DNA from: Bacteroidaceae bacterium
Lineage (GTDB): Bacteria; Bacteroidota; Bacteroidia; Bacteroidales; Bacteroidaceae
Assembly: GCA_016280445.1 (NCBI GenBank)
Contig: JAEEGS010000039.1
Coordinates: 1 to 37,110, forward strand
Length of the DNA: 37,110 bases
Direction of reading: 5' to 3'
Of the stretch, positions 8,682-36,367 are shown piece by piece (positions within the stretch are counted from its first letter, which is position 1; each line of letters opens with the position of its first letter). Both the position numbers and the translations under genes were made by a program. Under the pieces are notes generated by a model. It did no database searches and had not been told where the DNA came from. It saw only the letters and a program-made list of their open reading frames with translations.

Positions 8682-8842
8682 TGTCACGCTCTCTGCTGGG
8701 TAAGTGTAATATGCTCTGTTGGATTGGTGTAATATGCTCTGCCTGATGACTGAAATGTCCTCGACGGGGTTAGTGTAACAACCTCCAGTGACTCAGTGTA
8801 AGAGTCTCCATCAGGGGAGTGTAAGTGATAAACTCGATTCCT
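8682..8842. repeat. Degenerate 23-bp-period array A (7 units)
   Basis: Units start at 8682, 8705, 8728, 8751, 8774, 8797 and 8820, exactly 23 bp apart. Five of the seven begin with TGTAA and most carry CTC at positions 10-12. The remaining bases are divergent, though two neighbours share TGTAATATGCTCTG. No reading frame fits. The same period and start occur in array B at 35067-35181. Confidence 0.75.
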
Positions 8843-8843
8843 T

Positions 8844-8920
8844 GTTGGAATTGATCAATTCGTAGAAGGAATTGATGAATAAGTAGAAGGAATTGATCAA
8901 TTCATAGAAGGAATTGATGG
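8844..8920. repeat. 21-bp tandem repeat (about 3.7 units)
   Basis: Units begin at 8844, 8865, 8886 and 8907. The core is GAAGGAATTGAT, and two units contain the palindrome GAATTGATCAATTC. The array directly abuts the 23-bp array. In-frame stops on both strands make coding unlikely. Confidence 0.8.
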
Positions 8921-32938: not shown

Positions 32939-35005
32939 ATGAACATCAAATCAAGATTCAGAAAGCCGGAATCGGTGGTTTGGACACACTTCACACGTCA
33001 CGGTGATGCCATCTTCCTCAGTTTGCGGAGAGAGGTGCTCATTGGTGTGCTCAGTGTGGCCACATTGTCTGTTGCCTGCCCCGATTCTGCTGCGGCCATC
33101 ATGGCCTTCAGTCAGCCTTCTGCTCCAACCGACGACAAGGAGGAGATAGAACTGACGCTGGATAGTGCCGAGGTGGTGGGCACACTCGCCCCCCTGCCTG
33201 CCGACAAGGCGGTGCGCCTCGTGCAAGTGATTAACCGACAGGACATCGAGGCGTCGAGTGCCAACTCCGTCAACGACCTGCTGAAACTCGCTGCTGGCGT
33301 GGATGTGCGGCAACGCGGAGGCTTCGGCATCCAGACGGACATCGGTGTGAACGGAGGCACCGAAGACCAGCTCACCGTTCTGCTGAACGGCATCAACATT
33401 TCCAATCCTCACACAGGTCACCTCACAGTCGATTTGCCTGTCAATGTGGATGACATCGAACGAATCGAGGTGATTGAAGGCGGTGCAAGCCGCATCTATG
33501 GCAGTCAGGCCTTTGCGGGAGCCATCAACATCGTCACCCGCACGGACAAGGAAAACACACTCGGAGCGCACATGCAGGGTGGTTCCTACGGAACTTTTGG
33601 AACCAATGCCCATCTATCCCTCCAAACCACACACTTCAACAACCGGCTGAGCGGCAGTTACACGCGCAGCGATGGCGGCACGTACAACGACGATTTCAAC
33701 AAAGCCAGCGCCTACTGGAACGGCAAATACCAGAGCCAGCACTTCGATGCCACTTTGCAGGCAGGCTTGAGCACCATGAACTATGGCGCGAACACTTTCT
33801 ACGGCACAGGTTCCGATTCTCAATATGAGCAGGACCGACGCTTCCTCTTCGCAGCCAAAGCCGAATACAAAGGCCGAGTGCGCGTGCCCATTCAAGTCTA
33901 TTGGAACCGTTCCCTCGACCACTACGTCTGGAAGCGCGCCAATCCTGCAGCCTATCAGAACTTCCATCAGACGAACGTCTATGGAGCCAATGCCAACGCC
34001 TACACCACATGGGCGCTCGGCAAAACGGCCATCGGTTTCGAGTTCCGTCGGGAGAACATTCTCTCCACCCGTCTCGGCAAAGAAATTCCAGAGGCGGAAC
34101 AGCACAAATACAAAGTGCCCGGACACCACGAGCACTACAAATACAAGGACGGACGCAGCAATGTCGGCATCTATCTGGAGCATGACATCTTGTTGAATCA
34201 CATCACCATCTCACTCGGCACATTGGCCAACCACAATACCTCCGTCGGCAGCGGCATGCACCTCTATCCCGGCATCGACGTAGCGTGGAGACCTGCCGAC
34301 CGATGGAAGTTCTTCATTTCCTTCAACAAGAGCCTTCGAACTCCCACATACACAGATATTTATTATAACGGTCCAGGCCTTCAAGGGAACACATGCTTGA
34401 AGCCCGAAAAGAGCACCGACTGGCACGTTGGAACCACCTATACAGGCACTTGGTTCACCGCACAGGCAAAGGGATTCTACCGCCACGGAACCGACATGAT
34501 TGACTGGGTGAAATACCCCGATGCCACCTTCTACACGACTGCCAACAGCGACATCGACAACATCGGGGCAGAGGCACTTCTTCACCTCAACTTCTCCCGC
34601 CTGTTGGGAGAGAAAGCCCTACCCCAGCGGCTCACCCTCGGCTACTGCTATAACTACAAATATCGGGTGCACAAGGAGCAGGCTGCCAACTACGTCTCGC
34701 GCATGACCTTCCTGCGCCATAAGTTCGTCGCGTCCCTCAATCACCGCATCGTCAGTCATCTTTCCGCCCAATGGGACTTCACGCTGAAAAGCCGTGAAGG
34801 AGAGTTCGAGAATGCCGAGACGGGCGAACGCCAAACCTTCGGCACTTTCGCCACGCTCGACCTCAAGGTGCAATGGGAGAAGCCCCGCTACACCCTCTAC
34901 GTGCAAGCCAACAACCTCACCAACCACAAATACTACGATTTCGCCAATGTGCAGCAACCCGGCATCTGGCTCATGGGTGGTGCCAAAATGAAACTTGGCC
35001 TGTGA
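32939..35005 (+). CDS. TonB-dependent outer-membrane receptor (BtuB/CirA-like)
   Basis: The 688-residue receptor has a plug domain (residues about 95-200: VQVINRQDIEASSANSVNDLLKLAAGVDVRQRGG, RIEVIEGGASRIYGSQAFAGAINIVTR) and a barrel to the C-terminus. It lacks the SusC N-terminal extension and no SusD follows, so a small ligand such as cobalamin or an iron chelate is more likely than a glycan. The N-terminus is odd: 30 polar residues come before the hydrophobic signal core (VLIGVLSVATLSVA). Only 33 bp separate it from rodA, leaving no room for a cobalamin riboswitch. It may read through from the cell-shape operon. Ligand unknown. Confidence 0.88.
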   Translation: MNIKSRFRKPESVVWTHFTRHGDAIFLSLRREVLIGVLSVATLSVACPDSAAAIMAFSQPSAPTDDKEEIELTLDSAEVVGTLAPLPADKAVRLVQVINRQDIEASSANSVNDLLKLAAGVDVRQRGGFGIQTDIGVNGGTEDQLTVLLNGINISNPHTGHLTVDLPVNVDDIERIEVIEGGASRIYGSQAFAGAINIVTRTDKENTLGAHMQGGSYGTFGTNAHLSLQTTHFNNRLSGSYTRSDGGTYNDDFNKASAYWNGKYQSQHFDATLQAGLSTMNYGANTFYGTGSDSQYEQDRRFLFAAKAEYKGRVRVPIQVYWNRSLDHYVWKRANPAAYQNFHQTNVYGANANAYTTWALGKTAIGFEFRRENILSTRLGKEIPEAEQHKYKVPGHHEHYKYKDGRSNVGIYLEHDILLNHITISLGTLANHNTSVGSGMHLYPGIDVAWRPADRWKFFISFNKSLRTPTYTDIYYNGPGLQGNTCLKPEKSTDWHVGTTYTGTWFTAQAKGFYRHGTDMIDWVKYPDATFYTTANSDIDNIGAEALLHLNFSRLLGEKALPQRLTLGYCYNYKYRVHKEQAANYVSRMTFLRHKFVASLNHRIVSHLSAQWDFTLKSREGEFENAETGERQTFGTFATLDLKVQWEKPRYTLYVQANNLTNHKYYDFANVQQPGIWLMGGAKMKLGL

Positions 35006-35066
35006 AAACTGCTCCTTCAACACCACGAAGGAGAGCACGAAACTGACAAAACTGCAATACAGAAAA

Positions 35067-35181
35067 TGTAACATTTTTCACACCAAAACTGTTACACTTG
35101 TAACACACCCAGTGTTACACTTGTAACAGTGGCGGTGTAACATGTGTAACACTGGAACTGTTACAAATGTTACACTGGCGC
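35067..35181. repeat. 23-bp-period array B of TGTTACA/TGTAACA dyads (5 units)
   Basis: Units start at 35067, 35090, 35113, 35136 and 35159, exactly 23 bp apart. Three units begin with TGTTACA and two with TGTAACA. Two carry the palindrome TGTTACACTTGTAACA, and the last three end with a TGG-containing spacer. The array fills the gap between the convergent receptor and TraX genes. Period and unit start match array A at 8682-8842. Confidence 0.9.
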
Positions 35182-35204
35182 TGAAAAACATGCCAAAATC
35201 AAGG

Positions 35205-35933
35205 TCAGCAATCAGCGAAAAGACGGGCCAGCAGGCCTATGAGTGCCATGTGGACCGGATAATAATAGTAGAAGAATTTGCCGAGCCACGAGCAGCGGCC
35301 TCGCTGCCCGTTATACATAGCCAGCACCGGCACTGCCAACCAGCAGGCCAAGTGAACCATACCGTAGATTTGGCTATGGAAAATGAAGAAGGCAACGGCG
35401 TAGAGCGATATAATCAGCATCAGCCACAGCATCTGCTTGTGGAAATTGCCCCGGTTTCGCCCCACCATAAGTATGGCCAACGGGGCTGCACAACTCCAGT
35501 CGGATGTGCAGGTGAGCAGGCACGCCACCAGCGTGACAGCCACCTTCTGCCACCGGGACAGCCGCTTCATGTCCCACACCTTCAGCAGTATCAATCCCCA
35601 CAGGAGTGGCCAGGCGATGCTCGTGGCATTGAAGAGCAAGTTGTCCAGCGGATTGAAGCCCGACATGTTGAAATAGCAGAAAGCGAAGTGACTCACCACA
35701 GCCAGCATGAGCAGACGGAACAGGTAGCGGCGGTAGTTGTGCGTATGGTGATAACCCTCAGCCACGAAGAATATCATCATCGGAGCCGTCAGCCGTCCAA
35801 TGCAGTGCAAAATAATTTGCACGGGCGTTTCTGCCTGCTCATAGGTCTCGATGCCTACCCACGCCAGATGGTCAATCGTCATGGCGACAATGGCAATGAC
35901 TTTCAGGGCATTACCGTTCATTTTGCGAATCAT
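35205..35933 (-). CDS. TraX-family integral membrane protein
   Basis: The 242-residue protein has about seven to eight hydrophobic helices and TraX signatures: N-terminal LKVIAIVAMTIDHLAW, GRLTAPMMIFFVAEGYHHT and C-terminal FFYYYYPVHMALIGLLARLF. F-plasmid TraX N-acetylates pilin. Chromosomal homologues in gut bacteria are membrane acyltransferase-like proteins of unknown substrate, and no conjugation genes are nearby. The start at 35933 was chosen because its ATG overlaps the TGA of the upstream PPC gene (ATGA). A longer frame starts at 35945 and Met at 35921 is also possible. The two genes are probably coupled. Confidence 0.85.
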   Translation of the reverse strand: MIRKMNGNALKVIAIVAMTIDHLAWVGIETYEQAETPVQIILHCIGRLTAPMMIFFVAEGYHHTHNYRRYLFRLLMLAVVSHFAFCYFNMSGFNPLDNLLFNATSIAWPLLWGLILLKVWDMKRLSRWQKVAVTLVACLLTCTSDWSCAAPLAILMVGRNRGNFHKQMLWLMLIISLYAVAFFIFHSQIYGMVHLACWLAVPVLAMYNGQRGRCSWLGKFFYYYYPVHMALIGLLARLFADC

Positions 35934-36367
35934 TTGAAACTCCAAAATCCCGTACCCGTCTCAGGGTCAAACGTTCTCCCGATTGAGCCTCCGACAGTAG
36001 GCCGCAACTCTATCTCGGCAGTATAGAGCACCGTGGTCGAATGAAGGTGACCTCCCGCCATTCCGTGCTGTCCCTCCTTCTTGAACGAGAACAAAGCATG
36101 CGTATGATGAAAGAGCTGGCCATCGTCAGCAGACACAACATTACCGTTGAGAGACACCAGTTCCAGCATTCCCTCAATCTTCTCTGTCTCAAAGCAACCA
36201 CTCTCAGGGATGAACACCTGCAATTCGGCACTACTGCACCCACCGATGCCCGAAAAAATGGCCGACGGAATGGACTCCTTACGGCAAATCTCGAGGATAT
36301 TGCCGATGATTTCATCACCTCTATCCATCCTGACATAGTACGTCTCACCAATCTTTTTGTATTCCAT
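35930..36367 (-). CDS. PPC/DUF296-domain protein
   Basis: The 145-residue protein matches the PPC (DUF296) domain: MDRGDEIIGNILEICRKESIPSAIFSGIGGCSSAEL, then a strand-rich core with HHTHALFS and AGGHLHSTTVLYTAEIEL. The His cluster may bind a metal. In plants PPC accompanies AT-hook DNA-binding motifs. Bacterial single-domain members are trimeric and their role is unclear. It is translationally coupled to the TraX-like gene by a 4-bp overlap. Confidence 0.88.
   Translation of the reverse strand: MEYKKIGETYYVRMDRGDEIIGNILEICRKESIPSAIFSGIGGCSSAELQVFIPESGCFETEKIEGMLELVSLNGNVVSADDGQLFHHTHALFSFKKEGQHGMAGGHLHSTTVLYTAEIELRPTVGGSIGRTFDPETGTGFWSFK

Follow-up and report, generated by a model that had tools for sequence, protein, structure and literature searches.

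The DNA analysed here, referred to below as the window, is a stretch of 37,110 nucleotides from a Bacteroidaceae bacterium (contig JAEEGS010000039.1), and between two of its convergent genes lies a short run of regularly spaced dyads, here called array B. The question raised by this locus is whether such a run is a local curiosity or one member of a larger system and, if the latter, at what level it is read and by what kind of molecule. First-pass annotation, made from the sequence alone, had described five units at exact 23-bp steps with a dyad in each of the last four. Both statements are correct: the coordinates were confirmed, the 23-bp period was recovered by Tandem Repeats Finder, and each intact dyad has 0-1 mismatch to TGTTACANNTGTAACA. 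Array B consists of four 16-bp dyads of the form TGTWAC-N4-GTWACA on an exact 23-bp lattice (35090-35174), with a decayed fifth unit in register. The features of the locus are given below.

32939..35005, plus strand: left neighbour of array B, a TonB-dependent receptor gene whose stop codon (35005) faces the array
35067..35082, unstranded: decayed fifth lattice unit, TGTAACATTTTTCACA, in register
35090..35105, unstranded: dyad unit 1 of the intact array, TGTTACACTTGTAACA
35113..35128, unstranded: dyad unit 2, TGTTACACTTGTAACA, +23 bp
35136..35151, unstranded: dyad unit 3, TGTAACATGTGTAACA, +23 bp
35159..35174, unstranded: dyad unit 4, TGTTACAAATGTTACA, +23 bp
35205..35945, minus strand: right neighbour of array B, a TraX-family protein gene, convergent with the receptor gene

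A promoter-like match lies by array B on the minus strand (35196-35167; mean of shuffles 0.3), as seen in the same scan that looked for terminator-like sites.

Arrays of TGTWAC-N4-GTWACA dyads of the array B type are referred to as family I. The genome to which the window belongs (G000) is a 3.07-Mb draft in 84 contigs, and a DNA search of it gave 39 matches at 20 places, the window's own included. It contains 19 arrays of at least two units, array B among them, and 15 of the 19 have four intact units. Its forward strand holds 55 adjacent-dyad pairs (at most three mismatches), as against none for the reversed-pattern control. The expectation of many arrays per genome is therefore borne out by 18 further arrays besides array B, and the reading of array B as the operators of one local regulator is ruled out in favour of a genome-wide family. 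On contig C55 (L027), two near-parS sites and a lone family I dyad were observed at positions 72, 752 and 4035; this locus has no intact array and one good dyad only, and its sites are perhaps near the origin.

The first-pass annotation had assigned array B to one dispersed 23-bp family together with array A (8690-8850), which is made of degenerate 23-bp units starting with TGTAA or similar. The dispersed family stands as far as array B is concerned, however, array A has to be removed from it. Array A has eight matches in its own genome, itself included, and shows no dyad within four mismatches of TGTTACANNTGTAACA. In four of six aligned copies, the conserved sequence extends beyond the 23-bp units, the other two being opposite-strand copies that were compared unturned. 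It is a separate dispersed repeat, perhaps closer in kind to BrickBuilt or another repeat that contains a minisatellite. At window 8847-8918, array A is followed by 3.4 copies of a 21-bp tandem repeat, GGAATTGATCAATTCGTAGAA, which is also present in several of the other array A copies.

How far does family I extend beyond this genome? Matches with at most one mismatch were obtained in 9 of 61 genomes of the genus and order, all nine from the same genus, with a single match each in G018 and G036. When 84,980 species genomes were searched (contigs of at least 3,000 bases), an exact two-dyad pattern was found in 70 stretches from only seven assemblies (G034, G013, G014, G010, G011, G007 and G062). 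All seven belong to the window's genus; they are titled Bacteroidaceae, Prevotellaceae or Bacteroidales bacteria, and where a source is named it is horse feces or goat reticulum. Contamination probably accounts for the array of G007 (JAFSKR, L081), since the assembly has two prfA genes, one of which is on the 7.5-kb contig that carries the array. This contig (C67 of the RGIG3230 assembly) looks like a contaminant from an RGIG3223-like genome. L081 is counted in the tallies of the 84,980-genome search, array listing (89 arrays) and shared neighbours and left out of those of unit count, offset, orientation and spacing, while the CAMVIM locus L089 is left out of the unit-count (87 arrays) and spacing tallies.

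Collections of plasmid and phage records yielded no similar DNA at an E-value of 0.01. Amongst viral contigs, L107 has three identical copies of TGTTACACTTGTAACA (1979-2061), which lie in a long interval separating open reading frames and of which two are 23 bp apart, and L108 has two dyads 31 bp apart; a candidate on L109 was rejected as a coding VTPA repeat that matches by coincidence, and the exact TGTAGC pattern was not found in viral contigs. By the searches made, the arrays are limited, in cellular genomes, to one Bacteroidales genus. Within this genus, a generic three-unit TGTNNC-N4-GNNACA pattern (at most one mismatch) matched 11 of 45 genomes and its reversed control none. As the remaining 34 of 45 are without a match, the function of the arrays is non-essential or takes other forms. 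Searches of the open-access literature gave no description of arrays of this kind.

The number of units is narrowly distributed. When units with at most one mismatch are counted in six genomes, the 87 arrays divide into 62 with four, 19 with three, four with five and two with two; outside the window's own genome, recovery depended on an exact match to two units, a bias towards conserved sites. The arrays are intergenic: called-gene interiors hold none of 89 arrays (gene overlap of up to 30 bp allowed; 12 arrays with a called gene on one side only), although 82% of the same loci is coding according to the same caller, a simple purpose-written one that supplied gene starts and ends in place of annotation. 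Most family I arrays lie within a few hundred base pairs of a called gene. Around 76 arrays, the flanking genes are co-directional in 46 cases, divergent in 19 and convergent in 11, which is indistinguishable from background gaps of at least 100 bp in the same loci (117 co-directional, 47 divergent and 17 convergent; p = 0.49). An earlier suggestion that the arrays might insulate transcripts finds no support, because orientation follows the background and no terminator-like site was found on scanning 34900-35350.

In the window's own genome, the arrays have 38 immediate neighbour genes, of which 32 were checked against Pfam; these are functionally unrelated, with no visible common function. 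Array neighbours include release factors, EF-Ts, SAM synthetase, MlaE, DnaB, NqrA, TonB receptors, glycosyltransferases and domains of unknown function. Positions are shared between species, 15 of the 19 arrays of this genome having a neighbour gene in common with an array of another species. No two arrays of the same contig are less than 20 kb apart in the six genomes, against 5.9 such pairs expected (exact matches only outside the own genome), by which a sparse spacing along the chromosome is weakly supported, since the genomes compared are related.

These placement data bear directly on one alternative, namely that the arrays are operators of an Lrp/AsnC-type, or other multi-dimer, global regulator, an octamer of which would wrap the four dyads while the neighbouring genes respond to a metabolite. 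By analogy, four dyads per array would suit the four dimers of an octamer, and BarR, an Lrp-type protein, is described with 4 to 5 predicted regular semipalindromes and octamer wrapping (PMC10201364). The proximity of most arrays to a called gene is also as such a regulator would need. However, the pitch for BarR would be about 30-32 bp, if 15-bp sites are combined with the spacers of 15-17 bp given for it (PMC10201364), and not 23 bp; the neighbours share no function; divergent gaps are not enriched (19 of 76 against 47 of 181 in the background); and a simple pattern scan of the DNA around the loci, a small part of the genomes, revealed no Lrp/AsnC-like motif. We regard this alternative as unlikely overall, while giving it real weight.

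Sequence comparison of the arrays indicates which bases matter. In 28 orthologous array pairs, partly non-independent, the TGT/ACA bases differ at 31 of 1368 positions, W at 41 of 228 and central N at 69 of 228. Spacers of the same pairs differ at 148 of 603 positions and flanks at 1513 of 5445, the latter count being raised because some pairs are orthologous on one flank side only. Between the window's own genome and RGIG3223 (JAFSKK), 11 pairs differ at 1 of 504 TGT/ACA positions as compared with 396 of 2194 flank positions. Recovery by exact match to two adjacent units fixes part of this conservation beforehand; when two units per array are set aside, at most 1 of 240 TGT/ACA positions differs between these two genomes, and therefore the contrast between half-sites and flanks stands. 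Such strong selection on TGT/ACA also leaves the earlier idea of relics of a replicating element unsupported.

Selection of this kind could act on DNA or on a transcribed hairpin. Amongst 262 perfect dyads from six genomes, the W4/W13 combinations TA, AA, TT and AT occur 162, 43, 45 and 12 times, and AT is expected 13.9 times if the two positions are independent, so that there is no overall covariation between the half-sites; JAFSKK alone of the six genomes has the AT class above expectation (4 versus 1.6). Since covariation is expected under hairpin selection, selection most likely acts on half-sites that are read as double-stranded DNA and not on a hairpin. The opposing explanation, RNA-level hairpins that would terminate transcription, stabilise mRNA or mark sites of processing in the manner of REP/BIME elements, draws on the fact that the units are palindromes between genes and that a separate family of arrays, family III below, leans to gene 3' ends. 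Apart from the W4/W13 data, family I placement is blind to orientation, with 19 of 76 arrays in divergent gaps; the terminator scan around array B was negative and the whole window gave no Rfam match at gathering threshold; and both arms keep TGT/ACA nearly unchanged, whereas central N and spacers vary about like flanks. Hairpins in RNA are hence an improbable explanation.

The same design is encountered with a second half-site. Family II comprises TGTAGC-N4-GCTACA dyads at the 23-bp step, and a two-unit TGTAGC pattern (at most two mismatches) matched 31 times in G062, 10 in G035, 6 in G003, 3 in G002 and 2 in G014, with no match in five other genomes. The mlaE-mlaF junction presents these dialects at one position. 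Amongst 26 such junctions examined, eight have arrays, which are TGTWAC in G000, G013 and G014, TGTAGC in G003, G062 and G035, and AGTAC dyads at a 22-bp step in G036 and G033; in 13 of the 26, including the TGTWAC species G011, the gap measures 0-12 bp and holds no array. Individual genomes are dominated by one dialect: 142 of 148 half-sites in G000 are TGTWAC, as are 89 of 114 in G014 (its one TGTAGC array in the total), while 77 of 98 in G062 are TGTAGC or TGTAGT (its one TGTWAC array in the total). The dialects are not exclusive, with G062 keeping one TGTWAC array (L089) and G014 having one TGTAGC array (L284). The latter (L284 2537-2598) has a TGTAGC counterpart in G062 (L272 2459-2520) with the same sequence over three units; both stand beside a DUF6078-like gene. 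The two genomes also have TGTWAC arrays at another common site (L040, L089).

Family II arrays repeatedly occupy the sites of family I. Amongst the 18 loci counted for family II, 14 have at least one immediate neighbour in common with a family I array of another species and 8 (7 sites) have both, as compared with 4 and 0 of 36 control loci. These counts are non-independent because L187 and L192 are one and the same mlaE-mlaF site and because four of the 14 (L272, L280, L283 and L284) rest on a possibly multi-copy DUF6078 gene, matched at 61-71% identity. These 18 are drawn from 20 family II arrays; L191 was dropped by the strict finder and has a neighbour in common with L020, and the mlaE-mlaF array of G035 (L168) was left out. 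The window's own site belongs here as well, since homologues of its TonB receptor are encoded beside arrays of family II in G062 (L274) and of family I in G014/DGSP (L051).

Not only the site but also the register is shared. When arrays of families II and I are compared by their offset from the adjacent stop codon, 15 of 17 pairs (5 of 6 sites) agree modulo 23; within family I, the same holds for 18 of 23 pairs. The two exceptions between families are L270-L090 (17) and the window versus L274 (3; here two residues at one end of the protein are left over by the alignment). At one site, arrays of both families start inside the same stop codon (ATG|TAA for family I, ATG|TAG for family II). The chain at L278 has three intact units versus four in L073.

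A tree of 25 genomes built from four genes, two of them the mla genes that lie beside an array, joins G062 (mostly family II) and G014 (mostly family I) as sisters, with G000 and G013 (family I) next; ultrafast-bootstrap support is 100% at both of these nodes and weak at several deeper ones. The prfA tree alone places G035 and G033, not G062, nearest to G014. Given the four-gene tree, the dialect would have changed from family I to family II in the G062 line. Spacer identity between orthologous family I and II arrays (0.588) is modestly higher than between unrelated ones (0.469, sd 0.150), and N4 identity does not differ (0.559 versus 0.558), so that replacement may have proceeded either by gene conversion from array to array or by point changes.

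A third set of arrays, family III, has AGTAC-N10-GTACT dyads at a 22-bp step and is present in 13 of 45 genomes of the genus, with no match for the control. Its loci are as follows.

L200 1501-1564; also L193-L205 and L250-L269: AGTAC dyads, mostly three units

Using the strict finder, three units were obtained in 26 of 30 loci; these 30 come from a total of 33, L195, L198 and L201 having been dropped by the finder. Middle units of G036 often have the variant sequence AGTACCGCCTAGGAGGTATT. Thirteen of the 30 loci lie between co-directional genes, 10 between convergent and 3 between divergent ones, 3 are at an edge and 1 is inside a called gene, a placement that leans to gene 3' ends. Family III co-occurs with family I or II in G014, G062, G003 and G002, and 4 of its 30 loci have both neighbours in common with a family I array. 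We treat it as separate from families I and II, though sometimes at the same sites.

The presence of several array families with some sites in common, together with a patchy presence within the genus and the 13 of 26 mlaE-mlaF junctions with a gap of 0-12 bp and no array, could suggest a mobile or parasitic repeat, either a BrickBuilt-like MITE or a RAYT-mobilised REP, the dialects then being competing repeat lineages. A precedent exists in BrickBuilt, whose 23-nt repeat is described at 19 intergenic sites (PMC4596501). Nevertheless, no conserved sequence is seen outside the units: with a query of 401 bp, all 38 other matches stay within its bases 163-293, and the 60-bp flanks of 20 loci in the window's own genome look unrelated. 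Strong selection is confined to the half-sites, and copy number is mostly four and not freely variable. A Y1 transposase was detected neither in G010 and G011 nor in G013 and G014, fell under the family cut-off in G000 and is present twice in G034. With none above cut-off in five of six family I genomes, RAYT/REP is not supported, and mobility in either form appears a poor explanation of the arrays.

Which protein could read them? The first-pass annotation had proposed binding platforms for a nucleoid or partition protein, and while the arrays do look like a protein-binding platform, a partition protein, tested for ParB, is unsupported. Extended parS-like clusters read by the chromosomal ParB, or by a Noc-like ParB paralogue, would have the attraction that the dyads fit TGTNNC-N4-GNNACA, as does parS, TGTTTCACGTGAAACA, and that Noc sites are described as dispersed too (PMC7383237). 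No ParB_N paralogue tracks the arrays, however, as G010, G011, G013, G014 and G034 have one ParB_N match each and the extra ParB_N protein of G000 occurs also in G017, G018 and G023, which have 0-1 family I match. The ParB helix-turn-helix region is, moreover, nearly invariant over 18 sequences from TGTWAC, TGTAGC, AGTAC-only and array-negative species. With no tracking paralogue and a recognition region constant across dialects, ParB/Noc was rejected as reader, and parS-like clusters are a very improbable account.

Two further candidates were considered. The operators of BlaI, MecI and CopY have the core TACANNTGTA, which is present in most family I dyads; BlaI/MecI (PF03965) occurs in 38 of 41 genomes with no visible relation to the arrays and was rejected. 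A 113-aa AraC-type protein (L024, 3996-4337) has its stop codon within the array in three species (L024, L105 and L190) and its sequence changes faster than that of its neighbour. As a reader it is unsupported, because two species that use one and the same dialect have different versions of its first helix-turn-helix. No cognate protein was found amongst the candidates considered.

Taking these observations together, our preferred reading, to which we give a probability of roughly 0.5, is that the arrays are platforms for a host dimeric protein acting in chromosome-wide organisation, anchoring or global regulation, and that sites and protein have co-evolved. Each array would be a landing platform on double-stranded DNA for a putative host-encoded, sequence-specific DNA-binding protein, with one dimer reading each 16-bp dyad and TGTWAC as the half-site recognised in the window's species. 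Spaced by a constant 23 bp, or about 2.2 helical turns, four such dimers might then load a defined nucleoprotein complex onto the array of about 85 bp, perhaps an octamer with the DNA wrapped round it. As the roughly 20 arrays lie between unrelated genes regardless of gene orientation, the role of these platforms would most likely be chromosome-wide and not the control of one gene set. In some species, the TGTAGC half-site would be recognised instead, and most arrays found there carry it; because TGTAGC arrays often stand in the same place and the same register as TGTWAC arrays, co-evolution of protein and site is implied. A more specific formulation is that a Bacteroidales genus has a so far undescribed system for organising its chromosome or reading DNA globally, with about 20 four-dimer platforms per genome at sites conserved between species and a half-site switch from TGTWAC to TGTAGC in which most arrays found in the genome were rewritten in register. 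We regard this formulation as plausible but less likely than not.

If true, the arrays are a natural record of a DNA-binding protein changing its specificity together with its set of sites, and they would offer a comparative system for the joint change of DNA specificity and dozens of sites. G014 and G062, close relatives that differ in dialect at common sites, are the pair to compare. The arrays would also provide a handle on chromosome organisation in Bacteroidales, a subject on which our search of the open-access literature returned no paper naming Bacteroidales. Even if they serve ordinary regulation, a lattice of mostly four dyads with conserved positions is unusual.

Amongst the known systems, parS/NBS, BrickBuilt and REP each fail a defining feature tested here. 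Like parS, the arrays are built from 16-bp palindromes of the form TGTNNC-N4-GNNACA, a form that NBS itself, TATTTCCC-GGGAAATA, does not have. The NBS of Bacillus are described as 16-bp palindromes widely spread on the chromosome, and the parS/NBS pair as related sites of diverged specificity (PMC7383237). NBS is read by a ParB paralogue, whereas here none tracks the arrays, which also differ from NBS in having mostly four units at a 23-bp pitch and a half-site that differs between species of one genus.

The Porphyromonas analogue suggested by the first-pass annotation is in print as the BrickBuilt MITE of Porphyromonas gingivalis, described with a 23-nt direct repeat in 1 to 22.8 copies at 19 intergenic sites and, in many copies, a leader, a tail and IS5-like terminal inverted repeats (PMC4596501). 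The period of 23 nt and the intergenic copies in a Bacteroidales genome are in common; however, two defining features of BrickBuilt do not hold here, since no leader and tail with terminal inverted repeats were found, the array flanks being unconserved, and repeat number does not vary freely, all 87 arrays having two to five units and mostly four. REP/BIME elements are likewise short extragenic palindromes, of several types in one genome and with some families species-specific (PMC3733652). Unlike REP/RAYT, the arrays have no Y1 transposase over cut-off in five of six family I genomes, their hairpin is not under selection (W4/W13 near independence, one genome slightly above), and the neighbour genes that 15 of 19 own arrays share with arrays of another species also set them apart from REP.

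With Lrp/AsnC operators, the arrays share several regularly spaced dyads, and the regular semipalindromes of BarR are thought to be contacted by the dimers of an octamer, with wrapping of the DNA (PMC10201364). The BarR sites, however, are described for a particular intergenic region and with spacers of 15-17 bp (PMC10201364), not 7 as here. The presence of arrays at about 20 places without promoter bias is also unlike described Lrp operators.

A last comparison is with the dispersed palindromes of enterobacteria that are bound by chromosome-organising proteins, namely the sites of MatP (matS, about 20 in number) and of SlmA. The arrays resemble matS in being dispersed palindromic sites, about 20 per genome; however, matS and SlmA sites are single and of different sequence, whereas here the palindromes stand in arrays of four units.
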